From an uncultured Halobacteriovorax sp. (GTDB lineage Bacteria > Bdellovibrionota > Bacteriovoracia > Bacteriovoracales > Bacteriovoracaceae): 64,000 nucleotides of DNA. Shown here piece after piece: positions 20,617-33,199 of this stretch. How positions within the stretch are numbered: the stretch's first letter is position 1; each line of letters opens with the position of its first letter. The position numbers and the translations under genes were made by a program. The DNA is taken from positions 1 to 64,000 of the forward strand of contig CAJXVS010000005.1 of the NCBI GenBank assembly GCA_913061265.1, in the 5' to 3' direction. Below the pieces are notes generated by a model. It was not told where the DNA came from and made no database searches. It saw nothing but the letters and a program-made list of their open reading frames with translations.

Positions 20617-22308
20617 ATGAAATTCTTAATTATTTTACTCGCGCTAGTTAACTCTTCAATTGCCTCTGATTCCTTTGAATTTACGGTCTTTCATACTAAT
20701 GACCTCCATTCTTACTTTGAAGGAAGCGGCCCCGATTCAAATTTTACGGAAAAAGAAGGGGATGGCGATATTGTCTCTGGCCACTATGCAAGGCTGGCTC
20801 ATCTTATTAAAAAGGAAAAGTCTTTATCAGCAACACCAAATCTTCTTTTAGATGCAGGGGACTTCTTTGCAGGGACTTTGTTTCACGCACTAGGACCTAA
20901 TAAAAAGATAAACATCTTTCCTGAAGCTGAGTTTTTTAATTTGGTAGGCTATGACGCTACTACGCTTGGAAATCATGAATTTGATGCGGGAGACTTAGGT
21001 CTTGAAACTATGTTAAATAAGTGGATTGACCGGAAGGTGATGACACCTATCATTAGCAGTAATTCATTCTTTCAAAACAAAGACTCTGTTCTTAAAAAGT
21101 TTTATGGCAAAGACCTTCCGATAAAAAAATATGTCGTCAAAGAGCTTGTTCAAGGAAATAAGAGATTAAGGGTTGGTATTATTGGTCTTCTAGGACCTGA
21201 TGGGGCTTTAGTGTCTTTAGCTACCCGTAGTGACGTGGGCTTTATTGGTTATGATGATAGTAAGAGCAAGAAGGATATGGATGCCTTAACTGACTATCTA
21301 AATGACTTTGTTAAAAAAATAAAAAAGGATGAGAAACTAGATATTGTCATTGGTCTTATTCATGGTGGTCATCCTGAAGATGTAGAGATTCTCGAGGAGG
21401 TCTCTAGTATTAATTTACTTATAGCGGGGCATACTCATGTGGTTTACCCAAGGCCTATTAGAGTAGAGAAGGCCCTGTTAGTTCAGGCCGGTAGTTTTGG
21501 TAGGTATCTAGGGAAGCTAAAGCTAAGTTGGAATGGAGTCGATCTTAAGCTTTTAAATAAGGATAATATTTTAAAGGTCGATGATAGTATCCCCGTTGAC
21601 CAAGAGATGATGAAGGCGATTTCAAGTTATAAAGTTCATCTTAATCAGTTCCTAGAGAAGACAGGCTTTAGTTATGATAGCTTTATCTTTACCGCAAAAG
21701 ACTCTTTTATAAGAAGAAAAGAATCCCTCAACGAACTAGGTGTCCTAGTGACTAGCGGGGTTAGAGATCAACTAAACAAAACTGAAGTTGAACCGATCGA
21801 TCTTTATTTTACTTCCTTAGGATTGATTAGAAAGAATATACAAAAGGGTCATAGCTATCAGCTCTCTGATATTTTTAAAATCTTGGCCATTGGTTTTGAC
21901 GAAGAACTCGATCCCGGCTCAAAGGTTGTTAGTTTTTATCTTCATAAAAAAGAAGTCTTCAATCTCATCAATTTCATGGAAGTCTATGGAATGATATCCC
22001 ACAAGTTTACACCTGCTTTTTCAAACTCTGTTTCTTATCGAAATAGATGGTGGGGAATTCCTTTTGTAAATAAACTCGCTGATTTAAAGCTTTATGGAAA
22101 AGAGTATGATGAGTGGCCGGAACTTATTAATGTAGCAACCTCTCAATTTGTGGCCGCCTATCTACCAAAGGTACAATCAATGTCCTATGGGATGCTTGAG
22201 TTTGAGCCCAAGAATAAAATGGGAAAGGTTTTAAAAGTTCCGAAGGTTTTATCTGAAAAAGAATACCTTCTCTTGGCCAAGTACTTTAAAGGACAATCTA
22301 AAGACTAG
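20617..22308 (+). CDS. Exported 5'-nucleotidase / UshA-family metallophosphatase
   Basis: 563 residues with signal peptide MKFLIILLALVNSSIA. The metallophosphatase domain shows the binuclear-site motifs in order: HTNDLHSYF, DAGDFFAGT, GNHEFD, a GLIHGGH segment and AGHTH (about 275-279). The C-terminal domain (about 350-540) fits 5_nucleotid_C, which binds the nucleobase. Family members hydrolyse 5'-nucleotides or UDP-sugars in the periplasm. Its stop overlaps that of convergent scoB by 4 bp. Confidence 0.87.
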   Translation: MKFLIILLALVNSSIASDSFEFTVFHTNDLHSYFEGSGPDSNFTEKEGDGDIVSGHYARLAHLIKKEKSLSATPNLLLDAGDFFAGTLFHALGPNKKINIFPEAEFFNLVGYDATTLGNHEFDAGDLGLETMLNKWIDRKVMTPIISSNSFFQNKDSVLKKFYGKDLPIKKYVVKELVQGNKRLRVGIIGLLGPDGALVSLATRSDVGFIGYDDSKSKKDMDALTDYLNDFVKKIKKDEKLDIVIGLIHGGHPEDVEILEEVSSINLLIAGHTHVVYPRPIRVEKALLVQAGSFGRYLGKLKLSWNGVDLKLLNKDNILKVDDSIPVDQEMMKAISSYKVHLNQFLEKTGFSYDSFIFTAKDSFIRRKESLNELGVLVTSGVRDQLNKTEVEPIDLYFTSLGLIRKNIQKGHSYQLSDIFKILAIGFDEELDPGSKVVSFYLHKKEVFNLINFMEVYGMISHKFTPAFSNSVSYRNRWWGIPFVNKLADLKLYGKEYDEWPELINVATSQFVAAYLPKVQSMSYGMLEFEPKNKMGKVLKVPKVLSEKEYLLLAKYFKGQSKD

Positions 22309-22913
22309 GCGAGCTTTAGGTCTTTTTCGTTAACTCCAGGAGCGAGTTTGATAACTTCAAACTTAGAGCCATTTGGTTTAAAGATGCCTTTATCCGTAAC
22401 AACGAGATCAACTACATTCTTTCCTGTCAGTGGTAAGACGCATTGACCAAGCAATTTTGGTTCTCCGTGTTTATTGAAATGAGTCATCATGATGATAACT
22501 TGGCGTGCTCCATTAACGAGGTCCATGGCCCCGCCCATCCCCGTAACTTTCTTCCCTGGGATCATCCAATTGGCTAGGTTCCTCTTAGCGTCAACTTCCA
22601 TGCCTCCAAGAACACAATAATCTATATGACCACCCCGGATCATTCCAAAGCTTAGAGATGAATCAAAGAAGCTTGCGCCCTTTGAGATAGAAATAGTCTC
22701 TTTTCCTGCATTTATTAAAGTAGGAGAGAGAGTCTCTTTAGTAGGACGGCCCGCAACTCCAAGGACTCCATTTTCTGATTGAATCATTACATTTGATTCC
22801 GGATTCATCCTCTCAGCTATAAGAGTGGGAAGGCCAATGCCTAAGTTAACTGAAACATCTGACCCAATTAGTAAGATGACCTCATCGGCCATTTGATCTA
22901 CGCTCCAGCTCAC
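22305..22913 (-). CDS. scoB: 3-oxoacid CoA-transferase subunit B
   Basis: 202 residues. It shows the CoA-transferase subunit B signature, with the catalytic Glu in SENGVLG (Glu47) and GGAMDLVNGA, IIMMTHFNKHG, GKNVVDLVVTDKGIF. With subunit A it moves CoA between succinyl-CoA (or acetyl-CoA) and a 3-oxoacid such as acetoacetate, by way of a glutamyl-CoA thioester. It overlaps scoA by 4 bp and is the last gene of the operon that starts at thrS. Confidence 0.92.
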   Translation of the reverse strand: MSWSVDQMADEVILLIGSDVSVNLGIGLPTLIAERMNPESNVMIQSENGVLGVAGRPTKETLSPTLINAGKETISISKGASFFDSSLSFGMIRGGHIDYCVLGGMEVDAKRNLANWMIPGKKVTGMGGAMDLVNGARQVIIMMTHFNKHGEPKLLGQCVLPLTGKNVVDLVVTDKGIFKPNGSKFEVIKLAPGVNEKDLKLA

Positions 22914-23605
22914 TTCTCACCTTCAAGTTTTAAAAATTCAATTTCGTTTTTATAATCACTACCTTGAAATATTCTTTGAACAAAAAGACCAGGGAGATGA
23001 ACATCTTCAGCTTTAATATCTCCAAGCTCTACAAGTTCTTCTACCTCTACAATAGTCGTCTTAGCGGCCATGGCCATTAAGGGGGAGAAGTTTCTGGCCG
23101 TTTCTTTAAACCATAGGTTCCCATAAGGGTCGGCTTTTTGCGCCTTAATAATGGCAAAATCTGCGTGAAGGGCGGTCTCTAAGATGCAAGGACGGTCAAA
23201 GGTTTTCTCATCCTTACCTTCAGCAACCAAGGTTCCATATCCAGTAGGAGTATAAAAGGCCCTGATGCCGAGTCCCGCAGCTCTAATTCTTTCAGAAAAG
23301 GTTCCTTGAGGAACAAGCTCCACGTCAATTTCATTCTTAAGCATCTGTTCTTCTAGATCTGGGTTTCCACCAACGTAGGAACAATAGGCCTTCTTAATCT
23401 TTTTTTGTATCAAGATCTTAACTAGGCCTCTTCCAGAGTTTCCAATATTATTTGAGATAACTGTTAAGTCTTTAACATCCATTAAGGTTAGAGCGTCGAT
23501 ACAGTTCTCTGCAATACCACAAAGCCCAAAGCCTCCACTCATTAAAGTCATTCCAGACTTAAAGTCCTTAAGAGCGTCAGTGGCATCTTTATATATTTTA
23601 GCCAA
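22910..23605 (-). CDS. scoA: 3-oxoacid CoA-transferase subunit A
   Basis: 231 residues, typical for the A subunit. The start has GMTLMSGGFGLCGIAENCID (CoA-binding GGFGxCG motif), then YVGGNPDLEEQMLKNEIDVE and VPQGTFSERIRAAGLGIRAF, followed by TPTGYGT. It overlaps the preceding aminotransferase gene by 8 bp and scoB by 4 bp, so translation is coupled. The gene neighbours suggest the CoA acceptor is the 3-oxo product of an aminotransferase (inference). Confidence 0.92.
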   Translation of the reverse strand: MAKIYKDATDALKDFKSGMTLMSGGFGLCGIAENCIDALTLMDVKDLTVISNNIGNSGRGLVKILIQKKIKKAYCSYVGGNPDLEEQMLKNEIDVELVPQGTFSERIRAAGLGIRAFYTPTGYGTLVAEGKDEKTFDRPCILETALHADFAIIKAQKADPYGNLWFKETARNFSPLMAMAAKTTIVEVEELVELGDIKAEDVHLPGLFVQRIFQGSDYKNEIEFLKLEGEK

Positions 23606-24752
23606 GAAGGGCCTCCAAAGTTTTAAATGATTTACTCCACTCTTTAAGAGGAAGATTAAGATGAGGAGCGAGGATCAACCTCTTTTCCTGAGCAACTAGA
23701 GAAAGACCTGAATCAAGACATTCTCTAAAGCTTGGAGCCTTATCTAGATCAATGGCCGCGAGGAGCCCGATTGACCTGGTTTTATGTTTAAGAGACTCGA
23801 TGTCTTTAGTAAAAACTTCAATGAACTCTTTTAAATGGTCTTTAAATTCTTTTTGATTCGTATAATCTAAGACTGATTCTAAGGCCTTTAGGCCAAGAGG
23901 GTGGGCGTAGTTGGTCAGGCCGCAGCTAAGAGTCTTATCATTAAAATGTGAGTGAATCTTATCATTGGTCCAAACAGCACCAAAGGGGATAACCCCTGCG
24001 GTGATTCCTTTGGCCATGGTAATAATATCCGGTTTGAGGTTAAATTGCTGAAAACCAAAAGCTGTGCCTAGTCTATAAAAGCCGCAGATCACTTCATCAA
24101 GAATAAGAAGAACATTATTTTCATCGCAAAGTTTTTGAATACCTTGAAGCCAAGAAAGCTCTGGAACTAACACGCCATTATTACCAGGAACAGTCTCTAA
24201 GATTATCCCAACTAGGTCTTTAGTTTCTTTAAATATTTTCTCTGTTTTAGAGAGGTCAGGGTCTTCGTGAGGCTCTGGTATTCTAACAGTCCACTGATCA
24301 AGAGTTGGGACATCATCGTTGCGCCAATCACCAGTGACTGAGACAGCGCCTAAGGTTGCACCATGATAGCTTGGCCTTCTGGCGAGAATAATTTTCTTTC
24401 CAGTATAAAGGCGGGCCATCTTCAAAGCATTTTCAACTGCTTCAGCACCACTTGTTGTATAGAAGATCTTTCCTCCATCAAGAGAAATAAGATCGATCAA
24501 TCTTTTAGTAATATTTGTTTTTAAATCATGAGTCGCTTTAGGGGCTACGATAGTAAAGTTATCAAGTTGATTCTTTACGGCCTCTAAAGCAAACTTAGGC
24601 TTAAGGCCAAAACTGGCCTGATAGCTAATACTTGATAGATCAGCAATCCTTGATCCATTAGAATAAAAATAGTGATCCTCTACTGAATCAAGTGGATAGG
24701 TAGAAGCTCCCTTTTGCTTTGACCAAGTTATATAATAGGGATGATTACTCAT
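23598..24752 (-). CDS. Class III PLP-dependent aminotransferase
   Basis: 384 residues, slightly short for the class (about 420-450). Motifs in order: YFYSNGSRIADLSS (N-terminal substrate region), FYTTSGAEAVENALKMAR (PLP phosphate binding), SYHGATLGAVS, LILDEVICGFYRLG (Asp that binds the PLP ring) and DIITMAKGITAG (Schiff-base Lys). Class III enzymes act on omega-amino or beta-amino groups. The CoA-transferase next door makes a beta-amino-acid substrate attractive. The gene starts 2 bp after the C45 gene stops. Confidence 0.88.
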   Translation of the reverse strand: MSNHPYYITWSKQKGASTYPLDSVEDHYFYSNGSRIADLSSISYQASFGLKPKFALEAVKNQLDNFTIVAPKATHDLKTNITKRLIDLISLDGGKIFYTTSGAEAVENALKMARLYTGKKIILARRPSYHGATLGAVSVTGDWRNDDVPTLDQWTVRIPEPHEDPDLSKTEKIFKETKDLVGIILETVPGNNGVLVPELSWLQGIQKLCDENNVLLILDEVICGFYRLGTAFGFQQFNLKPDIITMAKGITAGVIPFGAVWTNDKIHSHFNDKTLSCGLTNYAHPLGLKALESVLDYTNQKEFKDHLKEFIEVFTKDIESLKHKTRSIGLLAAIDLDKAPSFRECLDSGLSLVAQEKRLILAPHLNLPLKEWSKSFKTLEALLG

Positions 24753-24754
24753 AC

Positions 24755-25861
24755 TTAAACCTTTTTGATATCCATTTCATCGCCAAATTTCTCTAACTTA
24801 AATGAATGCTCCACATAGTTATCATCATGAACCGGGCAGCCTCTCCAAAAGGATAAGTCATTTCCAGTAAGATCAGCAATCCCACCCCCACAAGTCATAG
24901 AAGGGTCTTGGGCGCCATTTTCAAAATGAGAGCAAATACTCTTAGGATAACCATCATGGTCTTGAAGTAACTTTTTTAGGTCATCATAGCTTTTAACTTT
25001 CGGCATTTTTTCAGTGAGAAGATCAAATCGGCAATGAGTAGTTGAACTCATTGAATTCTTATCTTCCATCTTAGAGACCTCAACGCCTAGGCAATGATTA
25101 GTATGAAAGGTTCCACCAACTTCAGAAGCGGCCATTGATCCAACCTTTTCATTATGAAGGGGAGTCACTTCCCAGTGCTCGCCACCAGTTTTATCAGAGA
25201 TTATATAATTATGACCTGAAGTAACGGGAGAGTTTAAAAGAATCTGTCTCATATCAACTAAGTTCTTAGCTTCAAGGCATTTTCTCACGAGAACGGGCCA
25301 TATCAAAGCGGCCCTAGCGTTTGAAGTGTTAATATTATTGACACCAATAAGGCTATTATAAGAATTAACGCCCATCATACCAACGCAGCCAACTAAAGAA
25401 AAAGAGACTGTTGCAGGCAGGCCGTGATCATTTGGAGTCTTAATCAGGCAAACATAATCTTTAGCAGATGAATGCATATCCCAAGTCTGACCGCTATAGA
25501 CCTTGCCAGCGTTAGAGACGTGTACCGTTGAACAGCCTTCTTCAGGCATTTCTATATCTCTAAAGTCAGTATAATTATTTAAAATAACAATCTCAGACTT
25601 TGTTAACCCAGCGCCTTCAGCGATTCCTTCTAGCTCATCTGTTAAATGAGGAGCGAATTCACGAGTCACCTTTAATTGTTCATCAGCAAGTGGGGCAATA
25701 TTAGGTTTTAAGGCCGGGTTCTTGGCCAGCATTAGTTCAATTCTAATTTCAAAAAGTTCCCTAATGGCATCTCTATGAGACTCACCATGGAATTGACCCC
25801 ACTGCCTAAAAGACTTTCCTTTTTCATACTCAATAATAGGGAAACCGCAGTCTTTACTCAC
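24755..25861 (-). CDS. C45-family acyltransferase/peptidase (isopenicillin N acyltransferase-like)
   Basis: 368 residues. The Ntn-hydrolase nucleophile is Cys110 in PEEGCSTVHV, with Gly109-Cys110 as the expected self-cleavage point. Further family marks are EGIAEGAGLTKSEI, SGQTWDMHS, GVNNINTSNARA, SGHNYIISD and TFHTNHCLG. The family cleaves or transfers acyl groups on amides (penicillin side chains, carcinine, acylated amino acids). No signal peptide, so cytoplasmic. It shares a base with the stop of the fusion gene upstream. Its place among aminotransferase genes suggests it unmasks or masks an amino group. Confidence 0.85.
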   Translation of the reverse strand: MSKDCGFPIIEYEKGKSFRQWGQFHGESHRDAIRELFEIRIELMLAKNPALKPNIAPLADEQLKVTREFAPHLTDELEGIAEGAGLTKSEIVILNNYTDFRDIEMPEEGCSTVHVSNAGKVYSGQTWDMHSSAKDYVCLIKTPNDHGLPATVSFSLVGCVGMMGVNSYNSLIGVNNINTSNARAALIWPVLVRKCLEAKNLVDMRQILLNSPVTSGHNYIISDKTGGEHWEVTPLHNEKVGSMAASEVGGTFHTNHCLGVEVSKMEDKNSMSSTTHCRFDLLTEKMPKVKSYDDLKKLLQDHDGYPKSICSHFENGAQDPSMTCGGGIADLTGNDLSFWRGCPVHDDNYVEHSFKLEKFGDEMDIKKV

Positions 25862-28800
25862 TAAAACCTCTCGTTGAATTTCTTCATCGCCCCTAGACTT
25901 GGGATGAATTTATATCGGCCGTGACCCATAGGGGTCATTAGGCTCGATAGTGAGTAGGGCAGATCACCTTTGATCGAACCTACTCCATTGTGAATATTAA
26001 ATTCACTTATATTATTTTCTTTAACTATTGCTGTTAGCTTCTCTGTGAACTTTGAAATGACAGTACTTGATTTAGCTCGCAGCTCTAGGGCCTTAAGATA
26101 AGCTCCATAAGAAAACTCATCTCCATCCCAAGTAGAGATCATCATGAGGGGTTTACTCATAAAGTTGGCCTCATTTATAAAGACGATACCTGCTTGCCCG
26201 CCCATAAAGATAAACCCAGCATCAGGCTCAATCGAGCTTTCATTCGAGGCGCAAAATGTTTCTTTATTAAACCTGTTCATGGCAGCAGCCGATTCATTAA
26301 AGACTAGGTTGATCTTATGATCTTTAGTCCACTTTCTTAGTTCTTGAAGAAAACTTAAAGGGACTGGCTCTAAGATATTTTGAGGAAGAGGCTCGATCCA
26401 TACGGCGAGAGTCTCTTTAGGGTTTGATTGATCCTTGATGGCCTTAAGGACTTCTTTCCAGTTCTTTTCATTAGGAGAGTCAAAATGAGTTGCTGGAAAA
26501 TATCCATCTTCTTGAAGGCTTAAGCTTCTGCTCATAAAGCTTCCAAGTCCAAAGTAATGACCTTTAAAACTGATCATCTTTACTCTATCTTCAGAGTCTG
26601 CCACAAAAAGTGACTTACTAATCTTATCGACACATTCACTTTGTCCGCTAGCTGAGTAACCATGACGAAGAGCTATAGGGAGCATGCTCATCATCTTTTT
26701 GAAATGATCTAAGTAGCGAGTGCTGACAAAGTTTGAAAGGCAAACCTTATTGGTAAGATAGGGAAGTTGTTCTTGGATGAACTCTTTTGTTAAATCACTT
26801 GAGTCTAAAGGCGAGACTAAGGCATTATCAAGTCTATAGTTCTCATCACTCCAGGTTAATTCATTATTATAATAAAAGACGTCTCTATGCTTTTCAAAGT
26901 CTGGATAGTCTTCAGGAACATAGAGCTCTTCTCTCGCGCCTAGTCCTAAGTTGATTGAGAGCATGGCACCGGCCAAGCGGTCGCGGTTTCTACCAACGAT
27001 CTTTTCTTTTCCTTCACTCATAGCAAGAAGATTGAGAGCGGACTTAATCTGACGACCGAGTCCTTTTCCTTGATGACCTGGTCTAACCGTGCAGTCGACC
27101 ATGTATAAAGTCTCGCTCTTTTCAAAGTCAGGGTCTCTTCTTAAGATACGTTCCATTGGAAATTGTGAGGCGGTTCCGCTAATGGCCATAGCCTCGATTC
27201 TTTTATCTTTTAAAAGGAGAATCGCTACAGAGGTATTATCTGAAACTGCTTTTTCAAAAGTCTCAAGAGAAGTTTGTCTCTCCGTTTCATAGACTTCTTT
27301 TTGAATGGCTGCAATATCGTCTTTGTAATTTGAAAAGTTATCTTTATTTAACCTAATGGCCTCTGATCCCTTGAGACCATTATCACTAGTAAGGATTCTT
27401 TCAATAGCATTCCAAGTTTCTTTTTTAGATGGAGGAGAATTATTTAGACTTAACAGCCTGTGATCAAGGAGTAATTCATTCCATTCATATAGATTGTCAG
27501 GGTTTCTCTCTATTGAATCTGCAGTGTCGACAAGAGTAGCTTCACTCTTACCTAGAACACTCCCAACAAGTTGCTCTAGTCTTTCAAAAAGAAAATTTAT
27601 ATCCTTGGCGCTAAAAGCAGTGTTTAAACGAAAGCGAAGAGTCTTATCACCCGCTGGGTAATAAAGAAGCCCATGATCAAATCTTGCCCCTATAAAAGAA
27701 GCGACTTTCTCTTTATCACAGATATCAAAAGCGAAACTTAGGCCTTTAAGCCTTGGCCTTTCGATAAGTCCTTCGTGCTTCTTAATAAGCTCAAGAAGTT
27801 TTTCCCTACAAGTCTCTTCCATCTTAATGATCTTATCTTGAGCCTGATCGAGGGCCACTGCATGAAAGTAACCTCTAATCATTGAGACCACTGAATACTC
27901 TTCGGATCCTTGATTGATGAGAGTTTCATCCCCATGAGAGAGAACAAGACCGATCTGCGCTTTTTTCGCGCAAACAACATAATTAGGGTTTAATTGATTC
28001 CCTGATCCATCTTCAAGCTTAAGCATCTTATGCCAAAAGAACTCTCGCCCTAGGTGAAATCCTGTTTGAACTTCATCGTGGATAACTCCTACGCCGAAGC
28101 TTCTCGCTAAAAGAAGAAGGGCAGAGTGAAAGCGTCCACTCGCGTAACGATCTCCACCTTCGCATTGCATAGGCTCTACGATGATAGAGAAGATCTCGCC
28201 CTTAAGAAGCTCATTACGAATCAAACTTAGGCAATGTACCTCGTCTTTTAAGATACTATCTTTATCCCACTCAGTAGGAGTCGTTATCTTTTTATGAGTT
28301 CCTTGTTCCCAGAATTGATGCCAATTGGCAGGAGCTTCTTGGTGAATATCATCACCCTTGAGCTCGGGGTATTCAGTAAAGGCGCATTCAAAGCCAGGAA
28401 ATAAGAAGGGCTCTCTTTTACTTGGATTCCAAGTGGCTTGAAGTGAGACTAACATCCTTCCATGAAAGGATCCTTTGAAGGCCAAGACTTTATTTGCTTT
28501 GGTATTCTTTCTAGCACGGTAACAATAACCAAGTGCAATCTCGTTGGCCTCGGCACCAGAGTTACAAAAGGTTGTGTGAAGAGAGTCCCAATTGGTTTTT
28601 CTTTTTAAGAATGACTCAAAGCCAGTTCTTACACTAGCGACAGACTTGGTATGATTTTCGTTGGTCCATGATTCTAAGAAGTGAGAAGGGCCCATGAATA
28701 CGGAAGAATTAAAGCCAAGACCTAATGTAGCGATCTGGCTGGCAGCGTCCATAAGATAATGAGTTCTTTGCCCATCAACTTCGATTCCCATAAAGGGGCC

Positions 28801-28926
28801 ATGAGAAGCTCTAAGCTTTGTTAAGTATAGTTTCTTCTCAGCCGGTAGGAGTCCACCCTCGTAATAGACATCTAGTTTTTCTTTGGCAAAGCTTTCATCG
28901 GTACGTTTAATTAAGTCTAGTTTCAT
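25861..28926 (-). CDS. Three-domain fusion: class III aminotransferase, GNAT, pseudoaminotransferase
   Basis: 1021 residues. Domain 1 (about 30-455) is a class III aminotransferase: FCNSGAEANEIALGY, FKGSFHGRMLVS, VIHDEVQTGFH (about 281-291) and the Lys pair in VVCAKKAQIG (321-322). Domain 2 (about 515-690) is a GNAT acetyltransferase with the acetyl-CoA loop VRPGHQGKGLGRQ (614-626). Domain 3 (about 695-1021) follows domain 1 segment by segment, but active-site positions are changed: SFKGHYFGLGSF, LVFNESAAAMNRF in place of the HDEVQTGF segment, and FMGGQAGIVF in place of CAKKAQIGLV. The Schiff-base Lys is gone, so domain 3 should be inactive and may be structural. A chain carrying its own degenerate partner is unusual. 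It overlaps ddl by 4 bp. Confidence 0.85.
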   Translation of the reverse strand: MKLDLIKRTDESFAKEKLDVYYEGGLLPAEKKLYLTKLRASHGPFMGIEVDGQRTHYLMDAASQIATLGLGFNSSVFMGPSHFLESWTNENHTKSVASVRTGFESFLKRKTNWDSLHTTFCNSGAEANEIALGYCYRARKNTKANKVLAFKGSFHGRMLVSLQATWNPSKREPFLFPGFECAFTEYPELKGDDIHQEAPANWHQFWEQGTHKKITTPTEWDKDSILKDEVHCLSLIRNELLKGEIFSIIVEPMQCEGGDRYASGRFHSALLLLARSFGVGVIHDEVQTGFHLGREFFWHKMLKLEDGSGNQLNPNYVVCAKKAQIGLVLSHGDETLINQGSEEYSVVSMIRGYFHAVALDQAQDKIIKMEETCREKLLELIKKHEGLIERPRLKGLSFAFDICDKEKVASFIGARFDHGLLYYPAGDKTLRFRLNTAFSAKDINFLFERLEQLVGSVLGKSEATLVDTADSIERNPDNLYEWNELLLDHRLLSLNNSPPSKKETWNAIERILTSDNGLKGSEAIRLNKDNFSNYKDDIAAIQKEVYETERQTSLETFEKAVSDNTSVAILLLKDKRIEAMAISGTASQFPMERILRRDPDFEKSETLYMVDCTVRPGHQGKGLGRQIKSALNLLAMSEGKEKIVGRNRDRLAGAMLSINLGLGAREELYVPEDYPDFEKHRDVFYYNNELTWSDENYRLDNALVSPLDSSDLTKEFIQEQLPYLTNKVCLSNFVSTRYLDHFKKMMSMLPIALRHGYSASGQSECVDKISKSLFVADSEDRVKMISFKGHYFGLGSFMSRSLSLQEDGYFPATHFDSPNEKNWKEVLKAIKDQSNPKETLAVWIEPLPQNILEPVPLSFLQELRKWTKDHKINLVFNESAAAMNRFNKETFCASNESSIEPDAGFIFMGGQAGIVFINEANFMSKPLMMISTWDGDEFSYGAYLKALELRAKSSTVISKFTEKLTAIVKENNISEFNIHNGVGSIKGDLPYSLSSLMTPMGHGRYKFIPSLGAMKKFNERF

Positions 28927-29918
28927 TTTCGGCTCTCAATACTAATGATCGACCTGATCCATTCTTTATATGAATGTCCATTTTGCTTCATCATTAGGGG
29001 GAAAAGGCTAATAGGTGTCATGCCTGGAAAGGTGTTGATCTCATTTAGGTAAATATCTCCATCATCAGTTAAAAAGAAGTCGATGCGGGAGAGGTGTCTG
29101 AGCTTTAACGCTTTAAAGGCATTAAGGGCATACTTCTTCATATTCTTAACAACTTCTTCACTTACTTCTTTTGCTTTAGGGATAGTGATGGTGGAACTTT
29201 CAGCATTATATTTTTCTTCGTAGGTATAAAACTCATTGGGACAGATGATCTCTCCCGGGTCTGAGATATGAACTTCGCCATTAAATTCATAGGCGCTCAT
29301 CTCTAGCTCACGGCCTTTGATGGTCTTCTCAACTAAAACATAGTCAGAGTACTTAAAAGCCTCTTTTAAAAAGCCATGGTATTTCTCAGAATCAGTGCAA
29401 TGAAAACAACCAACACTTGAACCTTGGTTGGAAGCTTTTATATAAACGTCTTTGTTTTGTTTAAAGAACTTATCTGCTTTTGTTAATTCATCAGCTTCTA
29501 GGCTAGTTAGATAACAAAAGGGAGTATTAGGAATACCTAAGTTATCGAACCATAACTTAGTGGTTACTTTATTAAAGCAGATGACACTGGTCTCTGGTGA
29601 ACAGCCAAGATAGGGTAGGTTCATCATTTCAAAGACTGATTGAATATCTCCCGTTTCACCTGGGTAGCCATGGATGCTTGGGATAACAAAGTCTAGTTTG
29701 ATACTTTTATCGGGATAGACAAGCTCACCGCTTTTACGAAGCTCGCAAAGGGCACCGGAGCGGTCTTTTCTTTCTCCGTTTTTTTCTATGACAACATGAT
29801 GAAGGTTGATTTCATCCCAATCTTTTAACTGATTATAGATAAACTCAGCGGAGACAAGAGACACTTCATGCTCAGTGCTACCGCCACCACAAATGAGGAG
29901 TACTTCTTTCTTGGTCAT
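28923..29918 (-). CDS. ddl: D-alanine--D-alanine ligase (ATP-grasp)
   Basis: 331 residues with the full Ddl motif set: GGGSTEHEVSLVSA near the N-terminus, IPSIHGYPGETGDIQ, SNQGSSVGC, VLVEKTIKGRELE, FYTYEEKYN, SRIDFFL and LNEINTFPGMT. The normal reaction joins two D-Ala for peptidoglycan in the cytoplasm. It sits 18 bp after thrS and overlaps the aminotransferase fusion. This is odd company for a cell-wall gene, so a different dipeptide or amide substrate should be kept open. If the genome has a second ddl in the mur cluster, this copy would be the specialised one. Confidence 0.85.
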   Translation of the reverse strand: MTKKEVLLICGGGSTEHEVSLVSAEFIYNQLKDWDEINLHHVVIEKNGERKDRSGALCELRKSGELVYPDKSIKLDFVIPSIHGYPGETGDIQSVFEMMNLPYLGCSPETSVICFNKVTTKLWFDNLGIPNTPFCYLTSLEADELTKADKFFKQNKDVYIKASNQGSSVGCFHCTDSEKYHGFLKEAFKYSDYVLVEKTIKGRELEMSAYEFNGEVHISDPGEIICPNEFYTYEEKYNAESSTITIPKAKEVSEEVVKNMKKYALNAFKALKLRHLSRIDFFLTDDGDIYLNEINTFPGMTPISLFPLMMKQNGHSYKEWIRSIISIESRK

Positions 29919-29936
29919 CCGTTTCCCTTATAGGCC

Positions 29937-31697
29937 TTATCTTAAAGATTCAGGCATTTTTTCTAAGTTCAATTCCGTGAACATAGCCGTTAACTCATCC
30001 ATCTTTATGCTCTCTGAATCTCTTGATCCATAACGCCTAAAGTTTAAAGTCTCTGTCTCCATCTCTTGGTCACCAACAACTAACATAAAAGGAATTTTGC
30101 CTTTTTGTATTTGCCTAGTCTTATAACCCATGGATTCATTTCTATCATCGACGCGAACTCTAAAGCCCTGTTCGTTTAATGTCTTAGCTAAATTATTACT
30201 ATACTCAAGATGATTTTCATTTCTCACTGGAACGATAACGGCTTGCTCTGGAGCTAACCAAAAAGGAAAGGCCCCGGCCACATGCTCTAGGTAAACGCCA
30301 AAGAATCTTTCTAAACTTCCAAGTAAAGCACGGTGAATAACCACAGGTCTTTCTTCGTTACCATCAGCTGTTGTAAATTTTAAATTGAACCTATCGGGAA
30401 GTTGAAAATCAAGTTGGATTGTTCCTAACTGATAATATCTGTTAAGAGCGTCCGCGATTTCTACGTCAATCTTAGGTCCGTAAAAAGCGCCATCGCCTTC
30501 TTTGATCTCATACTCATGTCCACTAGCTTCGAGGGCATCTTTAAGAGCGCCTTCAGCAATATCCCAAGTTTTGTCATCCCCAGCTTTCTTCTCAGGCCTT
30601 GTTGAGAGGTGAACCTTGATGTCTTTAAAGCCAAAATGCTTATAACAAGTAAAGAACATGTTCATAAGGTCTTGAATCTCACCTTGAATCTTCTCTAGTG
30701 GAATAAAAATATGGGCGTCATCTTGGCAAAAAGTTCTTACTCTCGTGAGTCCAGTGACTGCGCCAGCTTTTTCATAACGATGAAGCCTACCAAAGTCTGC
30801 ATATCTTAAAGGAAGATCTCTATAACTGTATTTATAGTGACCAAACATAAGCATATGGCAGGGACAGTTCATGGGCTTAACGGCGTATTCTCTTTCATCA
30901 ACATTAGAGAAGTACATATTTTCTTTATAATGCTCATAATGACCTGAAGTATGCCAAAGCTCACTATCGAGGACTTGAGGCGTGATTACTTCATCATAGC
31001 CAAACTTACGGTAGATCCTTCTCATGAAGTCGATCAATTCGTTATAAACAAAGGCGCCTTTAGGCATAAAAAAGGGTGAGCCTGGGGCTACTGGATCAAA
31101 ATGAAAGAGTTCTAGCTCTTTTCCAAGCTTTCTATGATCTCGCTTCTTAGCTTCTTCTAGGAAATGGATATGGTCTTTAAGTTCTTCTTTTGAATCAAAA
31201 CAAACGGCGTAGATTCTTTGAAGCATTTCATTATCAGAGTTACCACGCCAGTAGGCGCCTGCTGTATGGAGCAGTTTGAAGGATCTTGGTAACTGATTTG
31301 TATTATCAACATGGGGCCCACGGCAAAGGTCTATAAAATTACCTTGCTGATAGCAGCCAATCTCTTCCCCTTCAGGAATGGCGCTAATAAGCTCTACTTT
31401 TAGGTCTTGCCCTTTTTCAGAGAAGAACTTGATGGCCTCGTCACGGCTCATGACCTTTCTTTCGATAGGGAGTTTTTCTTTCATGATCTTTTTCATGAGG
31501 TCTTGGATCTTCTTGAGATCCTCATCTTTGATCTGATAGTCCATTTTCACGTCATAATAGAATCCGTTTTCAATAACGGGTCCCACGCCAAATTGAACGT
31601 TCTGATCTGGCCATAATCTCTCGATGGCCTGCGCCATAAGATGGGCTGAGGAGTGTCTTAATGTATCAATATCAAATTTAGGGGCCTGTTCCGACAT
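29937..31697 (-). CDS. thrS: Threonyl-tRNA synthetase lacking the TGS domain
   Basis: 586 residues. The editing domain (about 10-190) has HSSAHLMAQA and the paired motif DLCRGPHV, giving the HxxxH...C zinc-type site. The class II catalytic core shows PMNCPCHMLMF, RYADFGRLHRYE, GLTRVRTFCQDDAHIF and VIHRALLGSLERF, and the C-terminal anticodon-binding domain follows. The usual N-terminal TGS domain (about 60 residues) is absent, as in some bacterial lineages. It is the first gene of the long minus-strand operon, ahead of ddl. Confidence 0.95.
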   Translation of the reverse strand: MSEQAPKFDIDTLRHSSAHLMAQAIERLWPDQNVQFGVGPVIENGFYYDVKMDYQIKDEDLKKIQDLMKKIMKEKLPIERKVMSRDEAIKFFSEKGQDLKVELISAIPEGEEIGCYQQGNFIDLCRGPHVDNTNQLPRSFKLLHTAGAYWRGNSDNEMLQRIYAVCFDSKEELKDHIHFLEEAKKRDHRKLGKELELFHFDPVAPGSPFFMPKGAFVYNELIDFMRRIYRKFGYDEVITPQVLDSELWHTSGHYEHYKENMYFSNVDEREYAVKPMNCPCHMLMFGHYKYSYRDLPLRYADFGRLHRYEKAGAVTGLTRVRTFCQDDAHIFIPLEKIQGEIQDLMNMFFTCYKHFGFKDIKVHLSTRPEKKAGDDKTWDIAEGALKDALEASGHEYEIKEGDGAFYGPKIDVEIADALNRYYQLGTIQLDFQLPDRFNLKFTTADGNEERPVVIHRALLGSLERFFGVYLEHVAGAFPFWLAPEQAVIVPVRNENHLEYSNNLAKTLNEQGFRVRVDDRNESMGYKTRQIQKGKIPFMLVVGDQEMETETLNFRRYGSRDSESIKMDELTAMFTELNLEKMPESLR

Positions 31698-31909: not shown

Positions 31910-33199
31910 ATGGATCAGACAACAGAAGTTAACATGAACACTATTCCTTCAGGGCAAATCGCTGATGTAGAAGCGGCTTTGGGGTTTATGGAGGTTGATG
32001 AAAACTTAATGATAAAACCAGAATCACTTACGAAACATGAAGTGGGTCGGGCCTTTTATCAACTAGGTAAACTTCACTACGATAAGTCTGATTTAGTGAA
32101 AGCAGAAATGGATTTTCTTAAGGCCTATAAGTGTGCCGAGCTTCCAAGAGATGCTTTTTCTGTATTAAAGATACTTGGTTTTCTTATTCGTATTGCTTCA
32201 GAGAGGCAAGATGATGAAAAAGGAACTTATTACATCAATGAAGCTGAAAAAATCGCGAATGATCTTACCGGAATCCTAGGAAGTCTTAACTCTGAGTATT
32301 TTTATAATGTTGGAATTGTGAAGAACTACTCAGGTAAGTTTGACGAAGCTAGAGAGAACTTTGAATTAGCCTATAAGAGAAGTAAGGAAGAGAATGAGCC
32401 TGAGCTTCTGTCAAAATGTCTTCTTGCCCTTGCTACGAATAGCTACAATAGAAAAGATTATGAATCATCATTAGAGTACTTAGCTCAGCTAAATCAGCTA
32501 CTAAAGATCATCAACAAAAACTACCTGCAAGGGGCCATGTTCCTTTTCGCAGCTAAGGTTTATACAGAGCTTGATCTTTTTGAAAAAGCTCTTCAAAACT
32601 ACAAAAATGCCAATGAAACTCTTCAAGATAAGAAATGTTGGAACCTTTATGGTTATATCCTTCTTGGTAAGGGAATGGTCTATAAGAGAATGGGCGATTA
32701 TGACCGTGCTCTAGGTCTTTTTCAACTAGCTCAAGAGTCAATTGATAAGGCCACTTTTAGAAGACTAGCTGAACTTATCGATAAAGAGATCAAAGACGTT
32801 AACGATTCTAGTGTTGACCTCTATCTTGATAGAGCTAATAGAAAAGTTAAGGAAAAATCTCTTGGAACAATCGATTTTAAGCATAGATTTGTTCTTCTTG
32901 AGATCCTTTTCCTTCTGGCTAAGAACTCAGGCTCTTATTATGATAAAGACGCTCTGGCTAAGTCTATTTGGAAGGATGAATACAATCCTCTTATTCACGA
33001 TAAGCTAATCTATACAAGTGTTTCTCGTCTGAGAAAGCTGATTGAGCCTAAGAATGATAAAGGACAAAAGAGAAAGTATATTGTCCGCGGTAAAGATGGT
33101 TATACTTTTAATCCTCTAGCTAAGATTCGTTTTCATATGGAAGCAAAACCTCAAGTTGATAGGACTATTGGGAACGTTGAGTTAAGTTCACCAGTTTAA
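31910..33199 (+). CDS. TPR protein with C-terminal OmpR-type winged-helix domain
   Basis: 429 residues, no signal peptide. Residues about 45-300 hold tandem TPR-like helical pairs (AFYQLGKLHYDKSDLVKAE, YNVGIVKNYSGKFDEAREN, LLGKGMVYKRMGDYDRAL). Residues about 320-405 look like the OmpR/PhoB DNA-binding domain: FVLLEILFLLAKNSG, ALAKSIWKDEY, YTSVSRLRKLIEP (recognition helix), then KYIVRGKDGYTF. It has no receiver domain, so activity is probably controlled by protein or ligand contacts of the TPR part (inference). A GGAG ribosome site lies 8 bp upstream. Two short genes follow closely. Confidence 0.82.
   Translation: MDQTTEVNMNTIPSGQIADVEAALGFMEVDENLMIKPESLTKHEVGRAFYQLGKLHYDKSDLVKAEMDFLKAYKCAELPRDAFSVLKILGFLIRIASERQDDEKGTYYINEAEKIANDLTGILGSLNSEYFYNVGIVKNYSGKFDEARENFELAYKRSKEENEPELLSKCLLALATNSYNRKDYESSLEYLAQLNQLLKIINKNYLQGAMFLFAAKVYTELDLFEKALQNYKNANETLQDKKCWNLYGYILLGKGMVYKRMGDYDRALGLFQLAQESIDKATFRRLAELIDKEIKDVNDSSVDLYLDRANRKVKEKSLGTIDFKHRFVLLEILFLLAKNSGSYYDKDALAKSIWKDEYNPLIHDKLIYTSVSRLRKLIEPKNDKGQKRKYIVRGKDGYTFNPLAKIRFHMEAKPQVDRTIGNVELSSPV

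Follow-up and report, generated by a model that had tools for sequence, protein, structure and literature searches.

What metabolic task could bring together, in one run of seven same-strand genes, two class III aminotransferases, a GNAT acetyltransferase domain, an autoproteolytic amidase/acyltransferase and both subunits of a 3-oxoacid CoA-transferase? This run lies in a stretch of 64,000 nucleotides from an uncultured Halobacteriovorax sp. of the Bacteriovoracaceae (GenBank assembly GCA_913061265.1, contig CAJXVS010000005.1, positions 1 to 64,000), hereafter called the window. We propose that five of these genes, encoding an aminotransferase-acetyltransferase fusion protein (the fusion, AT1-GNAT-pAT), the C45 acyltransferase-like enzyme, a second aminotransferase (AT3), ScoA and ScoB, very probably work in the catabolism of lysine through beta-lysine made by lysine 2,3-aminomutase (KamA), leaving aside the order of the individual steps. 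The initial annotation had suggested the catabolism of acylated beta- or omega-amino acids, with C45 removing the acyl group, an aminotransferase yielding a 3-oxoacid and ScoAB activating it; the gene set supports this outline, and the linkage and co-occurrence with KamA make lysine the most likely substrate.

Linkage and co-occurrence with KamA

Relatives of the fusion were collected in one genome-wide scan and belong to Bacteriovoracaceae-type metagenome-assembled genomes (MAGs), Pirellulales and Myxococcota; in what follows, L and G numbers are the labels of the loci and genomes in this comparison set. The genome of the window encodes a KamA of 457 amino acids at C5:246331-247701, on the same contig as the operon and 215 kb away from it. 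In eight genomes reached via the fusion (G039 and G042-G048, mostly Pirellulales), KamA adjoins scoA; the genes run fusion-C45-AT3-scoA-KamA-scoB-thiolase in both L095 and L113 (Botrimarina), and in L100 and L112 KamA comes directly after scoA and the contig ends before any scoB. These KamA proteins are 63-67% identical to the one in the genome of the window, and this KamA clade, named here KamA457, was found in all the out-of-family fusion-bearing genomes checked by locus (11/11). Among the Myxococcota, full-length fusions bearing an aldehyde dehydrogenase (ALDH) accompany this KamA in G221 and G230-G234.

The same association was found within the family, where, among 100 genomes at least 85% complete, 45 carry both the fusion and KamA457, one only the fusion, three only KamA457 and 51 neither, which gives a Fisher p of 1.2e-23 by genome and, with 18/18 vs 3/26, of 1.3e-9 by genus, both statistics ignoring shared descent, with no correction for phylogeny. 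The single genome having the fusion without KamA, G267, contains a fusion fragment in an 88% complete MAG. We also aligned KamA457 with the lysine 2,3-aminomutase of C. subterminale (2A5H) and found the CxxxCxxC motif and the equivalents of Arg134, Asp293, Asp330 and Lys337 kept in 29/29 of the clade members read, Asp293 and Asp330 being the residues that bind the lysine side chain in that structure. These residues support a lysine side chain as ligand, which is not proof of free lysine as the substrate. KamA457 also belongs to the general KamA family (TIGR00238, 252 bits vs a cut-off of 199).

The gene set

The seven open reading frames, all on the minus strand, are separated along thrS-ddl-fusion-C45-AT3-scoA-scoB by +18, -4, -1, +2, -8 and -4 bp, and the family assignments of the initial annotation hold with curated profiles. 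This order recurs in loci across the family, so the arrangement is not due to chance. An Rfam scan for a leader RNA gave nothing.

The fusion (25861-28926, 1021 amino acids, with PF00202 aminotransferase parts) had been described as a class III aminotransferase fused to GNAT beside a second class III aminotransferase; both aminotransferases are indeed present, and a third domain of the fusion had been overlooked. Its AT1 domain occupies about residues 1-460, the GNAT domain about residues 478-698, and a C-terminal aminotransferase-like domain that lacks the lysine for pyridoxal phosphate (PLP), named pAT, about residues 700-1021. The AlphaFold model, made with an alignment of 37 relatives, reached a pLDDT of 91.9 and a pTM of 0.93. 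By sequence, the GNAT part stays below the Pfam cut-off (PF00583, E=0.0035); predicted alone, it reaches a pLDDT of 93.8, and its fold matches solved GNAT acetyltransferases. AT1 has its PLP lysine at Lys321, invariant in 37/37 relatives, and shares the His-Gly-Arg, Glu-Gly-Gly and C-terminal Arg motifs with E. coli AstC. In class III aminotransferases, the PLP phosphate is contacted by a threonine that the partner subunit contributes. AT1 is devoid of this threonine, while pAT holds its counterpart, Thr932 (37/37), in an invariant Ser-Thr-Trp motif and has an invariant Gln911, within a Gly-Gly-Gln motif, at the position of the PLP lysine. Since AT1 has the lysine without the threonine and pAT the threonine without the lysine, the fusion would form an aminotransferase dimer within each chain, with a single active site. 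The acetyltransferase would thus be inserted, within the same chain, between an aminotransferase and its partner subunit, the latter reduced to a lysine-less domain.

C45 (24755-25861; NF040521/PF03417) is an isopenicillin N acyltransferase-like autoproteolytic amidase/acyltransferase, scoring 167 bits for NF040521 vs a cut-off of 85, and its predicted nucleophile is Cys110 after Gly109, both residues being invariant in 12/12 sequences. AT3 (23598-24752; PF00202) is the second class III aminotransferase, with the beta-amine as its predicted target, and has taurine:2-oxoglutarate aminotransferase as its nearest solved relative. The scoA (22910-23605, start TTG) and scoB (22305-22913, start GTG) genes, for subunits A and B of the 3-oxoacid CoA-transferase, score above the cut-offs of TIGR02429/TIGR02428. 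In L121, L122 and L189, scoA comes after C45 and scoB is not adjacent.

The proposed pathway

From the gene content, the linkage and the conserved residues, we infer a pathway in which KamA would convert L-lysine into beta-lysine (3,6-diaminohexanoate), and the GNAT domain would N-acylate it, which would also prevent the cyclisation of later intermediates. AT3 would turn the beta-amine into a ketone, ScoAB would convert the resulting 3-oxoacid into its 3-oxoacyl-CoA, and a thiolase, encoded in the operon in Planctomycetes and elsewhere in the genome of the window, would release acetyl-CoA. C45 would cleave off the putative acyl group, and AT1, together with an aldehyde dehydrogenase, would remove the remaining omega-amine. 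This reading ties the KamA copies of Planctomycetes and of Bacteriovoracaceae-type bacteria, which are related to the predatory bdellovibrios, to lysine breakdown, and provides a testable function for generically annotated proteins common to three phyla.

Several observations weigh against lysine as the substrate or against the pathway as drawn. KamA457 scores 283 bits for TIGR03820, the AblA equivalog, and does not reach its cut-off of 525, so its lysine specificity rests on the residues described above; these alone are not discriminating, because they are also present in the EpmB-like paralogue L008. The KamA clade occurs without the fusion in three genomes of the family (G012, G279 and G020, the latter with two KamA copies), and the fusion without this KamA in the Myxococcota G218, G220, G223, G228 and G229, which are incomplete or small MAGs. 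AT3 is missing at its place in L104, and the GNAT domain has no similarity detectable by hhalign to the one AblB sequence compared. Within the family, the operon has no linked thiolase gene and no linked gene for an aldehyde dehydrogenase of its own, and queries there with AstD and succinate-semialdehyde dehydrogenase found no ALDH that separated fusion-bearing from other genomes.

Step order and alternative roles

With lysine as the substrate, the steps are somewhat more probably ordered as in the beta-lysine pathway inferred for Bacillus, via 4-aminobutyrate. In that case, N6-acetyl-beta-lysine would become 6-acetamido-3-oxohexanoate, its CoA ester would give 4-acetamidobutyryl-CoA, and C45 would liberate 4-aminobutyrate, to be converted into succinate semialdehyde and succinate.

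A tentative second order, for the same lysine/KamA substrate, resembles the arginine succinyltransferase (AST) pathway and passes through 3-aminoadipate and 3-oxoadipate. Here, the GNAT domain would acylate the beta-amine of beta-lysine, AT1 would turn the omega-amine into a semialdehyde for an AstD-like dehydrogenase to oxidise, C45 would then give 3-aminoadipate, AT3 would convert it into 3-oxoadipate, and ScoAB with the thiolase would yield succinyl-CoA and acetyl-CoA. The genes fusion-C45-AT3-ScoAB-thiolase stand in the order in which this route would use them, and the top match in the fold search with the fusion model was the lysine 6-aminotransferase of M. tuberculosis, although GABA (4-aminobutyrate) aminotransferases tie with it. 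Moreover, Myxococcota fuse an AstD-like ALDH before AT1-GNAT-pAT in proteins of 1727-1728 amino acids, an arrangement that suits this order better than that of Bacillus, and this ALDH reaches 404 bits with the AstD family vs 222-255 with succinate-semialdehyde dehydrogenases. Botrimarina also has a true AstD (711 bits, cut-off 579) convergent to the thiolase, with no AstB there. On the other hand, the thiolases score 256 and 315 vs a PcaF cut-off of 597, by which we rejected a PcaF identity as support for 3-oxoadipate; the solved structures nearest to ScoA are succinyl-CoA:3-ketoacid transferases, with no chain named PcaI among the matches; and the comparison with Bacillus favours the order via 4-aminobutyrate. 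If the AST-like order were true, the locus would stand for a new lysine-degradation route, and it is doubtful but conceivable that such an undescribed route is common to Bacteriovoracaceae-type bacteria, Planctomycetes and Myxococcota, in which, after N-acylation of beta-lysine, a fused aminotransferase-GNAT(-AstD) protein would act on the far end of the molecule to give N-acyl-3-aminoadipate, C45 would deacylate this, and the product, as 3-oxoadipate, would be split into succinyl-CoA and acetyl-CoA.

We also considered AstB as evidence for arginine use and set it aside as uninformative: it is absent in Botrimarina and in most of the fusion-bearing genomes checked, among which the genome of the window was not included, and it stands alone in those where it is present. 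A run of AstA-AstD-lon without AstB was seen in L200, L201 and L202 (Myxococcota G218-G220), genomes that have the fusion beside C45 as well.

Much less probable is an osmolyte role, in which KamA and the GNAT domain would make N-epsilon-acetyl-beta-lysine as a compatible solute, and the remaining genes would recycle it. Methanogens make this solute with ablA/ablB, and the same was proposed in Pelobacter (PMC3543383); several family members, besides, belong to marine genera. However, profile comparison found no AblB-like gene, and two aminotransferases together with a CoA-transferase and a thiolase point to breakdown.

Neighbouring genes

In the window, thrS (29937-31697, minus strand, TIGR00418) and ddl (28923-29918, minus strand) head the run. 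The ddl product is a D-alanine-D-alanine ligase by its equivalog model (364 bits for NF002527 vs a cut-off of 310) and the only true Ddl of the genome, the C8 homologue scoring 103-143 bits vs cut-offs of 243-310; the second true copy sought in the genome was thus not found. The gene set is conserved without thrS in relatives: thrS is not beside ddl in L068, L069, L090, L091, L096, L098 and L120, both genes are missing from the cluster in L086, and neither occurs with the gene set in loci from other phyla. Because relatives lack one or both, because the set is found elsewhere without them and because ddl is the sole true copy, we judge thrS and ddl to be housekeeping neighbours and not partners, and the functional unit to be that of five genes, fusion-C45-AT3-scoA-scoB. 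The other reading of the initial annotation, that ATP-grasp ligation builds a small peptide-like metabolite which GNAT or C45 caps, could invoke the 4 bp overlap of ddl with the fusion, and we rejected it as scarcely credible, given that the genome has no other true Ddl and that Planctomycetes, Myxococcota and L086 have the set without ddl.

The ThrRS gave no TGS-domain match in the Pfam scan, its matches beginning at the SAD domain. Divergent from thrS, a TPR/winged-helix protein (31910-33199) is kept there across the family, with about 47-94% identity.

Comparison with known systems

The statement that no described pathway with this set was known calls for correction, since the kam operon of Bacillus follows the same logic. 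In the kam/yod operon of a Cytobacillus replicon (L234), the order is aminotransferase, CoA-transferase A and B, peptidase, ablB and ablA (yodT-yodS-yodR-yodQ-ablB-kamA). The kamA of B. thuringiensis was assigned to L-lysine metabolism (PMC4428206), and the KamA of B. subtilis makes L-beta-lysine in vitro (PMC6522883). Both systems combine a lysine 2,3-aminomutase and a class III aminotransferase with CoA-transferase subunits A and B, an acetyltransferase and an enzyme that cuts amides. ScoA is 36% identical to YodS and ScoB 43% to YodR, which confirms the CoA-transferase likeness. AT3 is less clearly of the YodT type, being 27-29% identical to YodT and, like it, devoid of the gate Glu and the C-terminal Arg, and a closer YodT relative (35%) occurs in L052. 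In contrast, the acetyltransferase here is a GNAT domain within an aminotransferase fusion, and we rejected its direct homology to AblB or AstA, profile comparison having detected none with either; C45 takes the place of the YodQ peptidase, to which it gave no significant match; an extra (omega) aminotransferase is present, and KamA is unlinked in the family of the window. The substrate route is of a known kind and the enzyme set is different, and because non-orthologous enzymes replace the AblB and YodQ steps of Bacillus, the family models do not name the gene set. No published account of such a lysine pathway in Bacteriovorax or a Planctomycete came up in the searchable literature, outside which lie most subscription journals.

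In L052, from a more distant member of the phylum, the fusion and C45 are accompanied by a thiolase, a CoA-transferase of the glutaconate type and the YodT-like aminotransferase, and therefore different enzyme families fill the same job around a constant fusion-C45 core. KamA relatives were also seen on two plasmids. In a Klebsiella plasmid (CP067934; L233, 4957-11882), a KamA-like gene (43%) accompanies a gene of the class I tRNA ligase family and genes for a PLP aminotransferase and a major facilitator superfamily transporter, and this looks like a small-molecule cluster using beta-lysine; in a Deinococcus plasmid (L235, 6129-12948), KamA has as neighbours a CoA transferase, a member of the acetylornithine aminotransferase family and a glutamate-semialdehyde dehydrogenase, which may mark a further route for lysine or beta-lysine.

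An older parallel, compared by description and not by genes, is the L-beta-lysine pathway of Pseudomonas B4, which the Barker laboratory (1979-81) reportedly described as having N6-acetylation, two different transaminases, a 4-aminobutyrate intermediate and a deacetylase-thiolesterase said to act on 4-acetamidobutyryl-CoA. C45 would suit this last role, because isopenicillin N acyltransferase accepts amides as well as acyl-CoA thioesters. The latter enzyme (PDB 2x1d) is the nearest solved relative of C45, with a near full-length match and the same conserved Gly-Cys cleavage site, and differs in its expected substrate and reaction, C45 being predicted to hydrolyse an amide and not to make penicillin. 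The AST pathway (astCADBE) shares the general strategy of acylating one amine, transaminating the other, oxidising and deacylating, as well as the AstD-like ALDH of Myxococcota and Botrimarina; it differs in that the GNAT domain is unlike AstA, AstB is lacking in Botrimarina, C45 stands in for AstE, and KamA and the CoA-transferase are added.

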